Shown: positions 11,207 to 48,825 of the stretch, piece after piece
Numbering within the stretch: the stretch's first letter is position 1
Layout: each line of letters starts with the position of its first letter
From: Candidatus Gastranaerophilales bacterium
Lineage (GTDB): Bacteria > Cyanobacteriota > Vampirovibrionia > Gastranaerophilales > Gastranaerophilaceae
NCBI GenBank assembly: GCA_944323725.1
Contig: CALUTP010000031.1
Location: 1-55,848, forward strand
Length of the DNA: 55,848 bases
Direction: 5' to 3'
Translations under genes and position numbers: made by a program
Notes under the pieces: generated by a model
The model's input: the letters and a program-made list of their open reading frames with translations, nothing else
Databases searched by the model: none
Told to the model about the DNA's origin: nothing

Positions 11207-11785
11207 TTAGTATTCAATCCCTTTTCTTGCAGCAATACCTGTATCCCAGTAATGTTTTACCGGCTTAATTTCAGATACTAGGTGGGCAATATCTATTATT
11301 TCCTGTCTTGCATTTCTGCCGGTTAATACTATTTCCATTTCTTCAGGTTTATTTTTCAGTATCTCAAGCATTTCCTGTAGATCAATAAAGCCCATATCTA
11401 TTGCTATGTTTGCTTCATCAAGGATAATTAGGTTATATTCATCGTTTTTTATAGCCTTTTTAGCTAAAGCCCAGCCTTCTTTTATCAGTTCTACATCATC
11501 ATTAGTTTTGTTGTTTTGGTAGACAATTCTGTCAGGTCCTGCTTGAATAATTGTTAAATTATTGGCAATTTCAGGTGAGAGATTTCTAAAAGAATTTAAT
11601 TCTCCATAGTCATCTCCGCCTTTCATAAACATGATTATTAAAACTTTCCAACATCTGCCCAACGCTCGCATTGCAAGTCCTAATGAGGCGGTAGTTTTCC
11701 CTTTGCCATTTCCTGTGTAGACCTGAATGTAACCGTGTTTTGCCCAATCGGGATTTATTAAATTATTATTGCAATATTCTGTCAT
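11207..11785 (-). CDS. Second CobO/BtuR-type corrinoid adenosyltransferase
   Basis: 192 residues. HGYIQVYTGNGKGKTTASLG contains the P-loop GNGKGKTT; LIILDEANIAIDMG and VLTGRNARQEIIDIAHLVSE match the family, as does the C-terminus KPVKHYWDTGIAARKGIEY, almost the same as in the paralogue at 317-850. The N-terminus is 16 residues long before HGY. It is divergent from the formyl-THF cyclo-ligase gene, with 29 bases between the starts, so the promoters must overlap. Having two copies may reflect separate corrinoid substrates or partner enzymes; this is inference. Confidence 0.85.
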   Translation of the reverse strand: MTEYCNNNLINPDWAKHGYIQVYTGNGKGKTTASLGLAMRALGRCWKVLIIMFMKGGDDYGELNSFRNLSPEIANNLTIIQAGPDRIVYQNNKTNDDVELIKEGWALAKKAIKNDEYNLIILDEANIAIDMGFIDLQEMLEILKNKPEEMEIVLTGRNARQEIIDIAHLVSEIKPVKHYWDTGIAARKGIEY

Positions 11786-24000: not shown

Positions 24001-24879
24001 ATGAAAACAAATTCTATTAAATATGACATTACCCGTAGCAAGGGATATTCTTCGGTCCATAAAGGCCCGCAGATATTTAAAGAGAAGAGTGCGGGATTGT
24101 GTGAGAAAAATATTAAGGATAAAAGTGTGACATTTAGCGGTGGCTTAACAGGAATGAGTGAGGCTGCCGCTAATTGTTTAAATGCAACTTCCGGTAAAAA
24201 TGGCGGTTTATTTAAGAAAAAATGGTTTGATTCATTTTTAAGATATGCAGATGCTCATAATATAGGATGCAGTGCACTTATGGCGCTTCTCCTTGCTGGC
24301 ATTGTAAGACCTGCAACAATTATGGCTCTTCCAGGTAAAAAAGATAAAGAAGATAAAATTTATGCTTCAGGTCATTCTATTGCTTCCGGAATTATCGGTT
24401 TTGGTTTTTCAACTATTATTACAACACCTTTAGATATAGCAGTTAAGAAAATAGTTGAGGATGCAAAAGGCAAACTCCCTATTCCTAAGGAAGGAATTCC
24501 AAAAGATGCAAACCGTTCAGATTACACAAAATTCAATATGGGAATATTAAATAAAAAATATCTACGACTTGCAGAGTTGAAAAAAATGGCGATTGATGCA
24601 ACAACAGAAGCAGAAAAAAAAGCCATTAAACAGCAGATAAATGCTTTGGAACTTTCTATGAAAAATATTGCAGAATGGGTGATAGCTGTACCAAGAGCAA
24701 TGCTTACAATTGCATTAATTCCACTAGTTCTTAAGTATGTGTTCGGTATTGAAAAGAAAAAGAAACCAGTAGCTCCGGCTCAGGAACAGCAGAATTTACC
24801 AAAAACGCTACAAAATGAGGCTATTAGACGTTTTATGCAGAATAAAAATATAAATGAATTTAAAGGAGGGAATAAGTAA
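24001..24879 (+). CDS. Lineage-specific membrane protein with FSGG motif
   Basis: 292 residues, unknown function. The polar N-terminus contains KSVTFSGGLTGMSEAA (near 45-60). Two hydrophobic regions follow (GCSALMALLLAGIVRPATIM near 95-115; SGIIGFGFSTIITTPLDIAV near 130-150), then a charged helical middle and a third span (VIAVPRAMLTIALIPLVLKY near 228-250). The tail is Pro/Gln/Lys-rich. Starts in a TGGTGGG context. TAATG overlap with the next gene shows translational coupling. A shared promoter-like element precedes it. Confidence 0.8.
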   Translation: MKTNSIKYDITRSKGYSSVHKGPQIFKEKSAGLCEKNIKDKSVTFSGGLTGMSEAAANCLNATSGKNGGLFKKKWFDSFLRYADAHNIGCSALMALLLAGIVRPATIMALPGKKDKEDKIYASGHSIASGIIGFGFSTIITTPLDIAVKKIVEDAKGKLPIPKEGIPKDANRSDYTKFNMGILNKKYLRLAELKKMAIDATTEAEKKAIKQQINALELSMKNIAEWVIAVPRAMLTIALIPLVLKYVFGIEKKKKPVAPAQEQQNLPKTLQNEAIRRFMQNKNINEFKGGNK

Positions 24880-32684: not shown

Positions 32685-33371
32685 ATGAAAAAAGGCTTTA
32701 CACTTGCGGAAGTCCTTATTACACTTGGAATTGTCGGAATAGTTGCAGCAATGACTTTACCCTCAGTTATATCTAATTATAAAAAGAAAGAAGTCCCAAT
32801 ACAGTTAAAAAAATTCTATTCTGTTTTGCAAAATGCAATGTTACAATCAACTCTTGATAATGGAGCTATTGAATACTGGGAATTTCCTAGTCAACAGTCA
32901 AATTATGAAATGTTGAACAAGTTTACTAAAAAGTATCTATTTCCATATATTGTAGGGATAAAAGAATGTGATGATAATAGAAATAATGGGAATCAGAATT
33001 TTTGTAATAAAGTTCGGAATAATTTTTCAGAACAAACAGGAACTAGAGGATATGTACCTATTTATATAATGCCGAGCGGAGGTTGTTTTAAAGTTTCTAC
33101 TGGTGGGGCAGGTGACTGGGGGACAAATTTACATTTCCTTTATGATTATAATTGTTTAGGGAAACCAAACAAAATGGATATTGACATATTTGAATTTTTC
33201 TTTCAGTATGTAAAGGCTCAAAATAAAGTAAAGATGACCGTAGGTTTTAATACAGAAAATAAAAATAGAGTAGAACTTATGGAAATATGTAAACAACGAG
33301 TAGGTTCATGCGGTGCCTTAATTCAATACGATGGATGGGAAATAAAAGACGATTATCCATGGATAAGATAG
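32685..33371 (+). CDS. Type IV pilin-like protein (intact)
   Basis: 228 residues. MKKGFTLAEVLITLGIVGIV is a textbook class III prepilin signal (cleavage after G4, Glu at +5), followed by the hydrophobic helix to about residue 30. The globular part contains Cys pairs, CLGKPNKMDIDIFEF (a variant of the DVNG..PN..G.D.F motif) and ends DGWEIKDDYPWIR. AAAGGA precedes the ATG. Unlike the two broken relatives at 8528 and 10457 it has no homopolymer defect. Likely a minor pilin or pseudopilin exported by a type IV pilus/T2SS machine; no assembly gene lies in the window. Confidence 0.9.
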   Translation: MKKGFTLAEVLITLGIVGIVAAMTLPSVISNYKKKEVPIQLKKFYSVLQNAMLQSTLDNGAIEYWEFPSQQSNYEMLNKFTKKYLFPYIVGIKECDDNRNNGNQNFCNKVRNNFSEQTGTRGYVPIYIMPSGGCFKVSTGGAGDWGTNLHFLYDYNCLGKPNKMDIDIFEFFFQYVKAQNKVKMTVGFNTENKNRVELMEICKQRVGSCGALIQYDGWEIKDDYPWIR

Positions 33372-43469: not shown

Positions 43470-44474
43470 ATGATTTTACCGATTACAAATCGTTATAACA
43501 GTAATATAAAATTTTCTGCCGAAGAAAATGATGACAAGAAACTCCCATATACTCATGATACAGTTTTAAAAAATAGTTTTTCAAACCGTATGCGCATAGG
43601 CTTTGATAAATTTACTAATGCATTAACTCTGTATCCAACGAAAGGTTTAAAAGGAAGTAAAAACTCTAATTTTTATGAATTTTTAACTATGGGGATGGTT
43701 CCATATCTTGTAGGAAGTGGTATGCTTATGGCAGTATTTAATGCTGCTAATAAACATTTTTTGCCTAATGAAAAAGTTAAAGCACAATCTCTTGGTAAAA
43801 AGATGGCGCTTGGTGTTTTATTCTACGGAATTATGAAAGAAGTATCAAAATCATTTGTAACTCGTCCAGTTAAAGCAATTACCGGTGTTGATACAGAACT
43901 CCCTTATGCTAAGGTAATTTATGAATTGCCAGAAAATATAAATGACACAGATATTACAAGCATTGAGTATCATAAAGTTTTTGAGAGTGTAGAATTCCCT
44001 CGCTGGGATTTGTTGTATGGTGACGAAACTAAAGGCAAAAAAAGAAATTATTATTTTGATAAAGTAGCTAAAAAATTAGGCTTAGGTAATAATTTAAAAG
44101 ATTCTGATCAGGAAGTTAAGCCAAGAATAAAGGAAATAGTTGTAAAAACAAATCTAGCTAAAAATATTTCATCATATTTATGGGCAGCTGTTGGTGTAGG
44201 GCTTGCTTTCCAAGAGCCTTGGGATAAGTTTTTCAATGCTAAAGGATTTAAAAAATCTACAGAACAATTTTTTGAAAGTCTAGGGGATAGCGCAATAGAT
44301 TTTTACAAAGGTGATAAGAGTAAGTTAGGTAAATATTCAGGCAAAATTTTACTCGGAGCCGCTATTTTATCTTCTGTATTAGGAGTTGCCAATGTTATGT
44401 CAAGTTCCAATAGACCTTCAAAACTAGATAGTGCAGATATTATCGAAAAAGATAGAAAGTATGTGGTGAACTAA
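43470..44474 (+). CDS. Lineage-specific membrane protein, first gene of the GH13 operon
   Basis: 334 residues. The N-terminus has YNSNIKFSAEEND (x-F-S-A motif). Hydrophobic segments near 72-90 (FLTMGMVPYLVGSGMLMAVF), 110-125 (KMALGVLFYGIMKEV) and 290-305 (SGKILLGAAILSSVLGVANV) suggest an integral membrane protein; the middle (130-270) is polar and helical with PRWDLLYGDE. Similar in style to the protein encoded next (both have a FYEFL/PWDLY-type element). GGAGTAAAG precedes the ATG. Two bases separate it from the next gene. Confidence 0.8.
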   Translation: MILPITNRYNSNIKFSAEENDDKKLPYTHDTVLKNSFSNRMRIGFDKFTNALTLYPTKGLKGSKNSNFYEFLTMGMVPYLVGSGMLMAVFNAANKHFLPNEKVKAQSLGKKMALGVLFYGIMKEVSKSFVTRPVKAITGVDTELPYAKVIYELPENINDTDITSIEYHKVFESVEFPRWDLLYGDETKGKKRNYYFDKVAKKLGLGNNLKDSDQEVKPRIKEIVVKTNLAKNISSYLWAAVGVGLAFQEPWDKFFNAKGFKKSTEQFFESLGDSAIDFYKGDKSKLGKYSGKILLGAAILSSVLGVANVMSSSNRPSKLDSADIIEKDRKYVVN

Positions 44475-44475
44475 T

Positions 44476-47049
44476 ATGAAGACAAATTTAATTCAAAACT
44501 ACATACATCAATTTAGAACTCAGCCCCAAAAAGAAGACTCTGAAGTAAAAGTTATTACTCCTAAGAAAGCAAAGCCTAATTTTGATATAAACCGCGAACT
44601 TGCTAATAGGACTTTTATAAAACCTCTTAAAGGTCAGGGGCATATTGTAAAAAGTAATATATTTACAGCACCGGCAATATTTTTAAAAGATATGATTTAT
44701 GATGTACAAGCATTGCATGGTGCTGTAAATGGAGAAGCTAATGATCATCAATTAGGAAAATTGAATGACTTAGGAATGAAGCTCGGCGGGTTAGCGATTG
44801 CATCATATCTTTATACCAAAAAGCAGACACCTATGGCAAAGGGGATGGAATTCGTCGGACTGGCTTCATTTTTTGCCTCAATGGCTATTTGGCCGAAGCT
44901 TGCAATTCAGCTTCCTGCAAAATTAATACATGGTGTAAATGTCATGCCGGAATATGAAGATAGTTTTGGGCGCAAAAAACCATTTTATCAAGATCATCAG
45001 TTTATCCCTTGGGATTTGTATTCGGATGATGAAATTAATAAAATAGGTGATAGGTTGGGAGTCCCTCGAGATATTCCTAATCGCAGAGATTTTATTCAAG
45101 AAAAAATGAGGAAGTTAGCTCTTCAAAATAATACGTTATGGATGCTTACAGCAGGTGTTGCAACTCCTGTGATGAGTGCTTTAATTTGTAATCAGGTAGA
45201 GCCATACTTGTTAAAATGGCAGGATGCAAGACGAATTAAAGAAAATGAAAAAATGATTAATCATTTTTCTGACGCCATCAAAAATGCAAAATCAGACAGA
45301 ATATATAATGCATTAGATGATTTAATTGAGCTACATAAGGATGAGCCTCTTACTGATAAATTACTTCATAGAATTACTAGAACTGTTGGATTAGGTTTAG
45401 ATCCTGTTACAGCTGGAGCATTAGAGAATGATTTGCGAACAGCTCTTGTTTCTGGAAATCCTAAATATACTATAAATAGAAGTAACGTTCCTGAAATTTC
45501 TGTAAGTTTACAAAAAGCTTTCAAACAAATTCCTGTCGATGCAAATATAATTTCAGCAATTCTTCCAGATTCTGAAGAGTTATTAAAACATTTTGATAAA
45601 GAAGGCTTTTCAGGAAAAGTTGTTTCAATGTATTGTACTAATGGAGAAGAACTGGGTATTCAGGATATTGTTGATTCTGTTGATGATTTAATAAGGACAA
45701 AAATTAGAGTATATAATGAAAATGCTCAAAGTAAGGGAAAAGCTATTATAGATGATATTGATAAAGAGATAATTTTTGATAGATTATATGATAGTAAAAT
45801 AGAAGAAAGTCCTATAGCTAAAACTTTATTTAAAACTCCAAGTGCAGTGCTTGATATGGAAGCACAAAAAACATTGAGAAGTGTAGCTGATATTGTAACA
45901 GATTTAAATGCTAAAAGATCAGTATTAAACAGATATGTATATAGAAAATTTGCATCAGCGCCAGAAATGGGGCTTCCGAATTATTGGAATGATGTGGCTG
46001 GAGATTTGCCTAAAATATTTAAGTTTACGCCACAAGAACTTGCAGCTACACGTCTTGATAGAGAGTTGATGTATAAAGTATTTAGAGACAAAGTTGAAAA
46101 AATAGCTTCAAATGATGAAGAATATCGTCGAGTATTGTCAACAATAGCAAATAAAGTAGCACAATTGGATCGTGTTGCAGAAAATGGGGAAATTTCTGCA
46201 AAATATATAGAACATGTAGATACAACATTCCATACAGCTGCTAGTGCTTTTGAAAAGATGGGATTTAGTTCTACTGTAGAAAAACTTATTGGTAGAAATG
46301 GTGTGCCGAATGGTTCATTAATGGCTACTCAAAAATCATTTGTTAATAATAGATTAATTGGTGTAAAAAATTCGTTTGCGAGATTAATAAATACTCTTGA
46401 TTTGTATAGAAGAGTTGCAACTCTTAAAAATCTTGATTCATTAAATAATTTAAGTCTAGAAGTAAAAGAGGAACTTATTGAACATTGTAAGACTTTTACT
46501 ATGCAGGGACATTCATGTGATTTTGAAACAAAACTTGACTTTATGAGAAATATCGAAGCAAGTGATGAAGCTGGTGAATTAAAAGTTGAAGGTGGAAAGG
46601 TAATAAATCAAAAATTTAATAAGAATAAAAAGATTACAAGAGTAGAAATTTCTAATGATGCAGAATTCTTTAAACGTGCAATGGGATTAGTATATGAATG
46701 TCCTTACAGCGAAGATACAAGAAAAATTCTTGAAAGCAGCGGACTTCTTAAACTTATTGATGAACATAGACGTGATGTTGCTCATGATATAGGCGATAGT
46801 GAATATTTCGCAAAGAAATTCCATATATTCCATGGTAATGCTGCTTCAGCAAGCTCAGAACGTAAGTTCTGGTTAACCGGTATAGCTCCAGATGAGCTAA
46901 TGTCAAATGTCGGCAGGCAAACCTTTAATACAAAGAAATGGTTGAAGATATTCGGAACAGTAGGTGGTGTATTATTAGGAGTAACCGTTCTGGCTCAATT
47001 CTTCCTTGGTAGATTAAAAACTCCTGAAAGGTCACAAAAACAAGGTTAG
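44476..47049 (+). CDS. Large lineage-specific helical membrane protein
   Basis: 857 residues. Starts with a short amphipathic helix (MKTNLIQNYIHQFRTQP) and a polar linker, then hydrophobic segments near 95-110 (MKLGGLAIASYLY) and 125-150 (GMEFVGLASFFASMAIWPKL), FIPWDLYSDDEINKI (like PRWDLLYGDE in the previous protein), another span near 225-240 (LWMLTAGVATPVMSALI), a ~570-residue helical charged domain, and a C-terminal span (IFGTVGGVLLGVTVLAQFFL, near 825-845). The bulk is predicted to be cytosolic or periplasmic between anchors. No family recognised. Confidence 0.8.
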   Translation: MKTNLIQNYIHQFRTQPQKEDSEVKVITPKKAKPNFDINRELANRTFIKPLKGQGHIVKSNIFTAPAIFLKDMIYDVQALHGAVNGEANDHQLGKLNDLGMKLGGLAIASYLYTKKQTPMAKGMEFVGLASFFASMAIWPKLAIQLPAKLIHGVNVMPEYEDSFGRKKPFYQDHQFIPWDLYSDDEINKIGDRLGVPRDIPNRRDFIQEKMRKLALQNNTLWMLTAGVATPVMSALICNQVEPYLLKWQDARRIKENEKMINHFSDAIKNAKSDRIYNALDDLIELHKDEPLTDKLLHRITRTVGLGLDPVTAGALENDLRTALVSGNPKYTINRSNVPEISVSLQKAFKQIPVDANIISAILPDSEELLKHFDKEGFSGKVVSMYCTNGEELGIQDIVDSVDDLIRTKIRVYNENAQSKGKAIIDDIDKEIIFDRLYDSKIEESPIAKTLFKTPSAVLDMEAQKTLRSVADIVTDLNAKRSVLNRYVYRKFASAPEMGLPNYWNDVAGDLPKIFKFTPQELAATRLDRELMYKVFRDKVEKIASNDEEYRRVLSTIANKVAQLDRVAENGEISAKYIEHVDTTFHTAASAFEKMGFSSTVEKLIGRNGVPNGSLMATQKSFVNNRLIGVKNSFARLINTLDLYRRVATLKNLDSLNNLSLEVKEELIEHCKTFTMQGHSCDFETKLDFMRNIEASDEAGELKVEGGKVINQKFNKNKKITRVEISNDAEFFKRAMGLVYECPYSEDTRKILESSGLLKLIDEHRRDVAHDIGDSEYFAKKFHIFHGNAASASSERKFWLTGIAPDELMSNVGRQTFNTKKWLKIFGTVGGVLLGVTVLAQFFLGRLKTPERSQKQG

Positions 47050-47052
47050 ACT

Positions 47053-48825
47053 ATGATTCAAAATACAAATCTTTTATCTCAACATTTGAATAACATAAAG
47101 AATAAACTGGCAGTTAATTCTGAACCGGATAGTCAAGTGCAGGTAAATTCTGAAAAATCTAAATCAAATTTGCTTTCTGCTTATTTGACAAATCTTGCAA
47201 ATATAAATAAGCCAGTTGTAAAACAAAATTCACAGACTAGTGTGGTAGAGTCTGCTGCCTCTGTTGAAGAACAAAAACCAGTTAAACATATCATTTATAA
47301 AAATAATCTTCGTTCTATGTTCCAAAATAATGAAGCTAATATTTTGGCAATTGTTCCAAGAACTTTTAATGCAAAAGATTTAAATGGAAATGCCTATATT
47401 GATAATGGTGAAGAAAATGGAACTTTTTTAAATGCTATTGAGCGTCTAGATGAAGTCAAAGCAGATGGATTTAATACTCTTCACTTATTACCAGTAAATA
47501 CTCCAGGTAAAATTAAAGCAATGGGTACTGCAGGTTCTGTATATTCGCCATTAGATTTATTGGAAATAGATCCGATGCTAGTTGATAAAAATGATCCTAG
47601 AAGTCCAAAAGAACAGTTTAAGGCATTTATTGATGAATGTCATAAGCGAGATATCAAAGTGATGTTAGATTTGCCTAGTTGTGCTTCTTATGAAATGTTT
47701 TTAAATCATCCTGAATGGATGGCGATGGAGCGGGATGGGCTTGCTAAAACTCCTCAAGGGTGGAATGATATTAGAATGTTCCAACCATGGGAGGATGAAG
47801 GTAAACGTACTTTGAATCCAAAATTACTAGAGTTGCATAAACAATTTATTGATATGTGTATAGATTTAGGTATAGATGGAATTCGTTCAGATGTAGCTAG
47901 AGCAAAACCTGTTGAATTTTGGGATATATTAATCCCGTATTCTAGAATGAGAGATCCACAATTTGGCTGGCTTGCTGAGACTTATACATATGAAGATGCT
48001 TCTCCACAAGCTAATATGCCATATGATAGACCTGAAGATTCATTGAGAGCAGGTTTTGATCTGGTATATGGCCAGTATCATATATTCCATGAATGGCCTG
48101 ATGCTACAACATTTATGAATTATGTTAAAGAAAATCTGGATATGTCATATCGTTTGGATCCTGGAAAATCTTTAATTGGCTCATTTGCAACTCATGATGA
48201 TATATCTCCAATGTTTCATGGGGGGGCTGATTATTGTAAAATGACAGTCGGATTACAAGCCGGATTACCAATGCTTAATATGTATCAGGTAGATGGTTTC
48301 CAGACTGGGGATTATTATCTGTATCCTTGGGCTAATAAATATAATCCAGATACTCAGACTGATTCTCATGAAATGACAGTTCACCATGGTAAACTTGATA
48401 TATTTAATCTTTCAAGAAAACCTGGTGGGGATGATGAATCTATCAGGACTTTTATGCGTGCAGCTAATAAACTTAGAGCTGATAATTTAGACATATTAGG
48501 TAGAAAAGGTACTTTTATTGAATTTGATAAAGTCGGTGATAAAAATGATCAGATTATAACATTTGCTCGTCATTATCAAGGTAGAACTTTATTATGGGTT
48601 GCAAATAAAAATATAGATAGAGCAGTTGCTTGTACTATTAAAATTCCTACGTTAAAAGAAAATCAGCAGTTGCATAATTTATTACCATCTTATGGTAAAG
48701 AAAGTATATTCCAAGCTGTTAATGATGAACTGAGAGTTGATATAGGGCCAGCAAGAGTTCATGTGTTTGAAATTGATACTCCTGATATCGAAAATCATAC
48801 TGCAAAAGTATATAGACAGCACTAA
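47053..48825 (+). CDS. GH13-like alpha-amylase-family protein
   Basis: 590 residues. Residues 1-~95 are disordered and contain two copies of an NLLSxxLxN helix (NTNLLSQHLNNIKN; KSNLLSAYLTNLAN). From ~95 a (beta/alpha)8 barrel: FNTLHLLPVN, IKVMLDLPS (region I), DGIRSDVARAKP (region II, nucleophile Asp near 280), FGWLAETYTYED (region III, acid Glu near 308) and SFATHDDISPM (region IV, near 380). All three GH13 catalytic acids are visible. A beta-rich C-terminal domain follows. There is no signal peptide, so it is cytosolic or tethered to its membrane partners. A terminator follows. Confidence 0.87.
   Translation: MIQNTNLLSQHLNNIKNKLAVNSEPDSQVQVNSEKSKSNLLSAYLTNLANINKPVVKQNSQTSVVESAASVEEQKPVKHIIYKNNLRSMFQNNEANILAIVPRTFNAKDLNGNAYIDNGEENGTFLNAIERLDEVKADGFNTLHLLPVNTPGKIKAMGTAGSVYSPLDLLEIDPMLVDKNDPRSPKEQFKAFIDECHKRDIKVMLDLPSCASYEMFLNHPEWMAMERDGLAKTPQGWNDIRMFQPWEDEGKRTLNPKLLELHKQFIDMCIDLGIDGIRSDVARAKPVEFWDILIPYSRMRDPQFGWLAETYTYEDASPQANMPYDRPEDSLRAGFDLVYGQYHIFHEWPDATTFMNYVKENLDMSYRLDPGKSLIGSFATHDDISPMFHGGADYCKMTVGLQAGLPMLNMYQVDGFQTGDYYLYPWANKYNPDTQTDSHEMTVHHGKLDIFNLSRKPGGDDESIRTFMRAANKLRADNLDILGRKGTFIEFDKVGDKNDQIITFARHYQGRTLLWVANKNIDRAVACTIKIPTLKENQQLHNLLPSYGKESIFQAVNDELRVDIGPARVHVFEIDTPDIENHTAKVYRQH

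Follow-up and report, generated by a model that had tools for sequence, protein, structure and literature searches.

Background

GH13 enzymes are normally soluble or secreted. In the window, which is the whole stretch of 55,848 nucleotides analysed here, the gene for a GH13 enzyme without a signal peptide (P3) follows directly upon genes for two membrane proteins (P1 and P2), which raises the testable question of why an enzyme of such a class would be held at a membrane. We conclude that the enzyme very probably works within a membrane-bound machine for glucose polymers. Two undescribed membrane-protein families thereby gain a clear enzymatic partner, through gene fusion and joint absence, in an operon carried by most sampled species of a common order of gut bacteria and by relatives beyond it.

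By homology, the window derives from Candidatus Gastranaerophilales, class Vampirovibrionia, and a P2 relative with 71% identity is found in a public record of that name. The order comprises common, little-cultured, gut-dwelling, non-photosynthetic kin of cyanobacteria. The source genome amounts to 1.91 Mb over 48 contigs. Literature searches for a P1-P2-GH13 operon found nothing, and the terms "membrane-bound" and "membrane-associated" are not used in the portions consulted of an extensive review of alpha-glucan enzymes in prokaryotes (PMC11046441). The P1 and P2 families and their partnership with GH13 appear to be undescribed.

Gene order, joint absence and fusion

The sequence-only reading had proposed an operon of three genes spaced 1-3 bases apart. 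Both the coordinates (Table 1), which leave 1 base between the first two genes and 3 between the last two, and the comparison with relatives bear this out. That reading had named a gene order unconserved among relatives as grounds for rejection, and the comparison showed the opposite. The order P1-P2-GH13 on a single strand was found in 50 of 50 complete loci, inside and outside Gastranaerophilales, and because it is identical in all of them the arrangement is not due to chance. In nearly all 50 the genes overlap or nearly touch; there are a few wider gaps, one of which falls in a locus interrupted by masked sequence.

Table 1. Positions of the operon genes and their features in the window
Feature	Position	Strand	Evidence
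P1, 334-aa membrane protein of an undescribed family	43470..44474	+	ORF, family alignment, model, hydropathy
P1 hydrophobic segment 1 (residues 71-89)	43680..43736	+	hydropathy
P1 hydrophobic segment 2 (residues 112-130), weaker	43803..43859	+	hydropathy
P1 element FPRWDLLYGDE, within the P2-homologous region	43995..44027	+	profile-profile comparison
P1 hydrophobic segment 3 (residues 229-247)	44154..44210	+	hydropathy
P1 hydrophobic segment 4 (residues 293-311)	44346..44402	+	hydropathy
P2, 857-aa paralog of P1; joined to GH13 at its C-terminal segment where the two are fused	44476..47049	+	ORF, fusions, profiles
P2 motif NLIQNYI near the N-terminus, similar to those of GH13	44485..44505	+	motif search
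P2 hydrophobic segment 1	44761..44817	+	hydropathy
P2 hydrophobic segment 2	44851..44910	+	hydropathy
P2 element FIPWDLYSDDEI, counterpart of P1 FPRWDLLYGDE	45001..45036	+	profile-profile comparison
P2 hydrophobic segment 3	45133..45189	+	hydropathy
P2 C-terminal hydrophobic segment 4; invariant W822 just before, basic tail after	46948..47007	+	hydropathy, alignment
P3, GH13 enzyme of 590 aa without a signal peptide	47053..48825	+	ORF, profiles, alignment
P3 first N-terminal motif NLLSQHL	47068..47088	+	motif search
P3 second N-terminal motif NLLSAYL	47167..47187	+	motif search
P3 predicted catalytic nucleophile D280	47890..47892	+	alignment
P3 predicted acid/base E309	47977..47979	+	alignment
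P3 predicted third catalytic acid D382, THD motif	48196..48198	+	alignment

In a large draw of genomes from the phylum, P2 was found in members of Gastranaerophilales and, among the matches listed, in none outside that order. Profiles of P1 and GH13 located the operon in f45 and f50, two more families of Vampirovibrionia, and in no other family sampled from that class. Most sampled Gastranaerophilales species carry the operon. Ten genomes of the order in which it was missed at first were searched again: P2 was absent from nine, detectable P1 from all ten, and GH13 of the operon type from the same nine that lacked P2. Three P2-less family members, one of them 99% complete, retain secreted-type GH13 only. 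The tenth genome has GH13 together with a 148-codon fragment of P2, probably cut by a contig end.

Membrane protein and enzyme are physically joined in three outgroup genomes, all of f45, in which P2 and GH13 are encoded by a single ORF (L065, L069 and L070, with 986, 1030 and 1082 aa, respectively) and the GH13 part comes after the last hydrophobic segment of P2. One of these genomes (G300) has both a fused (L065) and an unfused copy (L075). In the GH13 tree the fused copies form one group and the paralogs bearing signal peptides form a separate branch. On account of the conserved order, the joint absence and the single-ORF fusions, it is very likely that GH13 is physically tethered to P2, which we infer also for the unfused proteins of the window.

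No glycan genes directly flank the operon in the window, no neighbouring gene travels with it across all families, and a scan for an operon promoter and terminator gave scores no better than those of shuffled sequences. GC content is 31% in the window and 47-54% in the outgroup loci. Elsewhere in the window, an ORF (32685-33371, + strand) begins with MKKGFTLAEVLITLGIVG, and this pseudopilin-like start is seen in many loci; two ORFs on the minus strand (317-898 and 11207-11785) have near-identical starts of the form GYIQ[IV]YTG[DN]GKGKTTASLGLA[LM]RALG and are apparently paralogous nucleotide-binding proteins.

Two branches of one membrane-protein family

Profile-profile comparison aligned P1 with P2 over 196 columns (E = 2.5e-12, 97.7% probability). 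The P-[RW]-WDL element, which the sequence-only reading had noticed in both proteins, is part of this longer homologous stretch. Four hydrophobic segments, of moderate strength (family mean hydropathy 1.0-1.7), occupy matching places in the family-wide hydropathy profiles of P1 and P2. P1 and P2 differ chiefly in the length of the helical stretch that separates segment 3 from segment 4, which is short in P1; in P2 it runs to several hundred residues and is variable and fast-evolving. Judged by these profiles, P1 and P2 are distant paralogs, each a branch of a single membrane-protein family that is itself undescribed, and it is in this form, at the level of the family, that the earlier description of two novel membrane proteins holds.

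Searches for known relatives returned little. No family in Pfam or NCBIfam matched P1 or P2 above its cut-off, and there was no reliable relative in PADLOC or the PDB. The P1 model consists of helices and one beta-hairpin (mean pLDDT 84, pTM 0.76); Foldseek matched it to nothing in the PDB or BFVD at E<=0.001, and VIA-align aligned it to various helical bundles with Z scores of at most 7.3, a range described as uninformative in the notes to that program, which is no proof of a new fold. The P2 sequence matched only helical, coiled-coil or designed-bundle entries of the PDB (E>=0.011). A role as a defence system or phage cargo was considered and rejected: P1 and P2 have no PADLOC match, a single weak match (E 1.9e-4) to phrog_33918, a phage family of unknown function, and no relatives in the scanned viral contigs. 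PADLOC gave GH13 only a marginal GlgB-like match.

A set of glycosyltransferase-5-like proteins of 910-1066 aa (L094, L076, L077, L078 and L083-L088), with weak family matches, carries a hydrophobic C-terminal tail with basic ends; one of them, of 910 aa, is encoded in the source genome of the window (L094:5978-8710, - strand). The P2 tail matched these tails with E ~2e-4, and we regard homology as unproven, because the match has 44% probability and extends no further than a transmembrane stretch flanked by basic residues.

Toward the N-terminus of P1, a motif of the F-x-[AGSKR] type is present in 32 of 49 proteins (shuffled mean 12, maximum 19); it is also seen in the window ORFs at 24001 and 24879. 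F-x-G within the first 50 residues was counted in only 8 of 107 ORFs of the genome, where about 4 were expected, which does not establish a tag common to the whole lineage. The same genome encodes a GH13-like protein of 1441 aa in which LSFEGY lies close to the start and MSFTGG close to the end (L096:6275-10600, + strand).

A divergent GH13 enzyme with an intact triad

The best sequence matches of P3 are Thermotoga AmyB (4gkl), Thermotoga maltosyltransferase (1gju) and the Lactobacillus plantarum amylase (3dhu). Against Pfam PF00128 it scores 19.0 bits alone and 22.3 bits with the neighbouring matches in frame, the curated cut-off being 22. The residues D280, E309 and D382 are invariant across 38 aligned operon sequences. 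In a larger alignment of 55 sequences that takes in fused and secreted copies as well, they are kept in 53, 53 and 54, respectively. The substitutions of D280 and E309 sit together in one secreted paralog of another genome, G021 (L080:6550-8079, + strand), which bears a signal peptide and is probably a pseudo-enzyme, because its nucleophile is replaced by Ser and its acid/base by Gln.

Structural evidence for P3 comes by homology, from the model of the fused homologue L065, in which the GH13 part has a pLDDT mostly above 90. Foldseek returned 716 matches for this model at E<=0.001, the matches listed being structures of GH13 type, and the GH13 part aligned with 3dhu, 4gkl and GlgE at Z scores of 35-37.5, best with 3dhu (Z 37.5, rmsd 3.0, 403 residues). 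The sequence-only reading had given P3 all three catalytic acids and no signal peptide, with a non-catalytic pocket as the outcome that would speak against it; the alignment agrees on the acids, hydropathy at the start of the protein is low, and the L065 barrel is modelled confidently with the triad intact.

Region I of P3 is of the DLPSCAS type and lacks the usual Asp-x-x-x-Asn-His. Asn-His after the region I Asp is usual in GH13 and not universal. This is a variant that does not exclude P3 from GH13, since the solved GH13-type maltosyltransferase (1gju) also has no Asn-His in the aligned region. With such a region I, the activity may differ from that of ordinary amylases. P3 belongs to a known family, within which it is divergent, and both its GH13 fold and an alpha-glucan-type chemistry are well supported.

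Proposed role at the membrane

Our model is that an inner-membrane scaffold of P1 and P2 holds a cytoplasmic, alpha-glucan-processing GH13 at the membrane, and we give it an even chance of being right. The two family branches would make up the scaffold together, and the C-terminal membrane segment of P2 would hold GH13 at the cytoplasmic face, through a covalent link in some species and through non-covalent docking in the genome of the window. The tethered enzyme would then hydrolyse or transfer alpha-1,4-linked glucose chains at the membrane, drawing on imported maltodextrin or stored glycogen. Among these steps, we infer the docking of unfused enzyme, the membership of P1, the cytoplasmic side, the alpha-glucan substrate and the choice between hydrolysis and transfer. 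As to the membrane-tethered intracellular glycan-processing complex of the sequence-only reading, tethering stands on the fusions, gene order and joint absence; an intracellular enzyme is likely from the missing signal peptide; a stable complex is presumed.

The genome of the window has a glycogen synthase family member (487 codons), a phosphorylase family match and a secreted-type amylase, and starch and glycogen use has been predicted for the group (PMC3787301; PMC4040986). Together these lend support to a putative alpha-glucan role of the operon. The moderate strength of the hydrophobic segments, the atypical region I and the lack of glycan genes beside the operon in the window weigh against the model. 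A wider form of it seems to us doubtful: in Gastranaerophilales and relatives, scaffold and GH13 would make up a dedicated alpha-glucan machine that acts beside other alpha-glucan-type enzymes carrying C-terminal membrane tails, and glycogen or maltodextrin turnover would thereby be organised at the membrane and not in the cytosol. We also think it unlikely that the scaffold-held enzyme serves a non-storage purpose, trimming or transferring alpha-glucosyl units on a glycolipid or envelope glycan precursor. A membrane-borne substrate would fit the strict link to membrane proteins across lineages of differing GC as well as a soluble one does, and region I is atypical, but the closest structures are annotated as alpha-glucan amylases and maltosyltransferases, and the operon has no constant neighbour gene in all families.

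The side of the membrane is a separate matter. The maximum 12-residue hydropathy within the first 50 residues is 1.12 in P3 and 2.3-2.7 in the paralogs bearing signal peptides; among the highest values listed for operon GH13 starts, one is 2.07 and the rest are at most 1.4. A cytoplasmic GH13 is thus the simplest reading, because the unfused copies have no signal-peptide-like stretch, with the exception of that one moderately hydrophobic start, and the enzyme is likely intracellular. The flanking charges of the segments are ambiguous. By the positive-inside rule, basic flanks mark the cytoplasmic side. The basic loop that connects segments 1 and 2 would therefore speak against the orientation assumed here, as would segment 4, which is somewhat more basic on its N-terminal side. 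The charges around segment 4 would suit a periplasmic P2 C-terminus, with the unfused enzyme exported non-classically by way of its disordered N-terminus or of P1 and P2. Sampled family genomes do contain a secreted relative of the same fold. We nevertheless hold a GH13 outside the cytoplasm to be quite unlikely, given that the unfused copies have no signal peptide and that we identified no known pathway by which such an N-terminus would be exported.

Docking of the unfused enzyme could involve a short pattern, N-[LM]-[IL]-x-x-Y-[IL], that occurs near the start of P2 in 21 of 49 sequences and, in one or two copies, close to the beginning of GH13 in 22 of 48, in the same genomes (shuffled controls: at most 2 and 4, respectively). 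This possible docking motif is a lead only, because the pattern was chosen post hoc and is missing from many lineages.

That P1 and P2 organise the membrane or cell shape, with GH13 as an alpha-glucan-binding regulatory or sensory subunit, would suit the long, helical, fast-evolving middle of P2 and a GH13 that is the most conserved of the three proteins (mean column identity 41%, against 35% and 23%), but is improbable, as the operon copies show no variation in the triad or at many other positions, whereas one secreted paralog shows that the same fold can lose its acids.

Comparison with known systems

The best matches in both sequence and structure are Thermotoga neapolitana AmyB (PDB 4gkl) and the L. 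plantarum alpha-amylase (3dhu), which have a barrel and a C-terminal sheet domain, as in the GH13 part described here. Identity to the fused homologue in the structural alignment is just 22-23%, the two records hold no membrane-protein partners or fusion, and P3 differs in its region I without Asn-His. The Thermotoga maritima maltosyltransferase (PDB 1gju), a soluble enzyme that transfers maltosyl units between maltodextrins, is the second-best profile match and is like P3 in having an IPRT-type start of the barrel and no Asn-His in the aligned region I; its sequence match to P3 is partial, in three pieces. Within the same genome, a paralog (G000:C41; L045:7087-8706, - strand) is 41% identical to P3 over residues 69-539 and has the triad. 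Unlike P3, it has a hydrophobic start resembling a signal peptide and no P1 or P2 neighbours, and it falls on a separate branch of the tree. The GlgE maltosyltransferase (GH13_3) shares the same barrel with L065 (Z ~36, third by structure), with an identity of 19-21% and a match confined to the barrel and C-terminal domain. According to the consulted part of the review cited above (PMC11046441), GlgE has been reported in an operon with GlgB; whereas GlgE is thus partnered by GlgB, the operon partners of P3 are membrane proteins.
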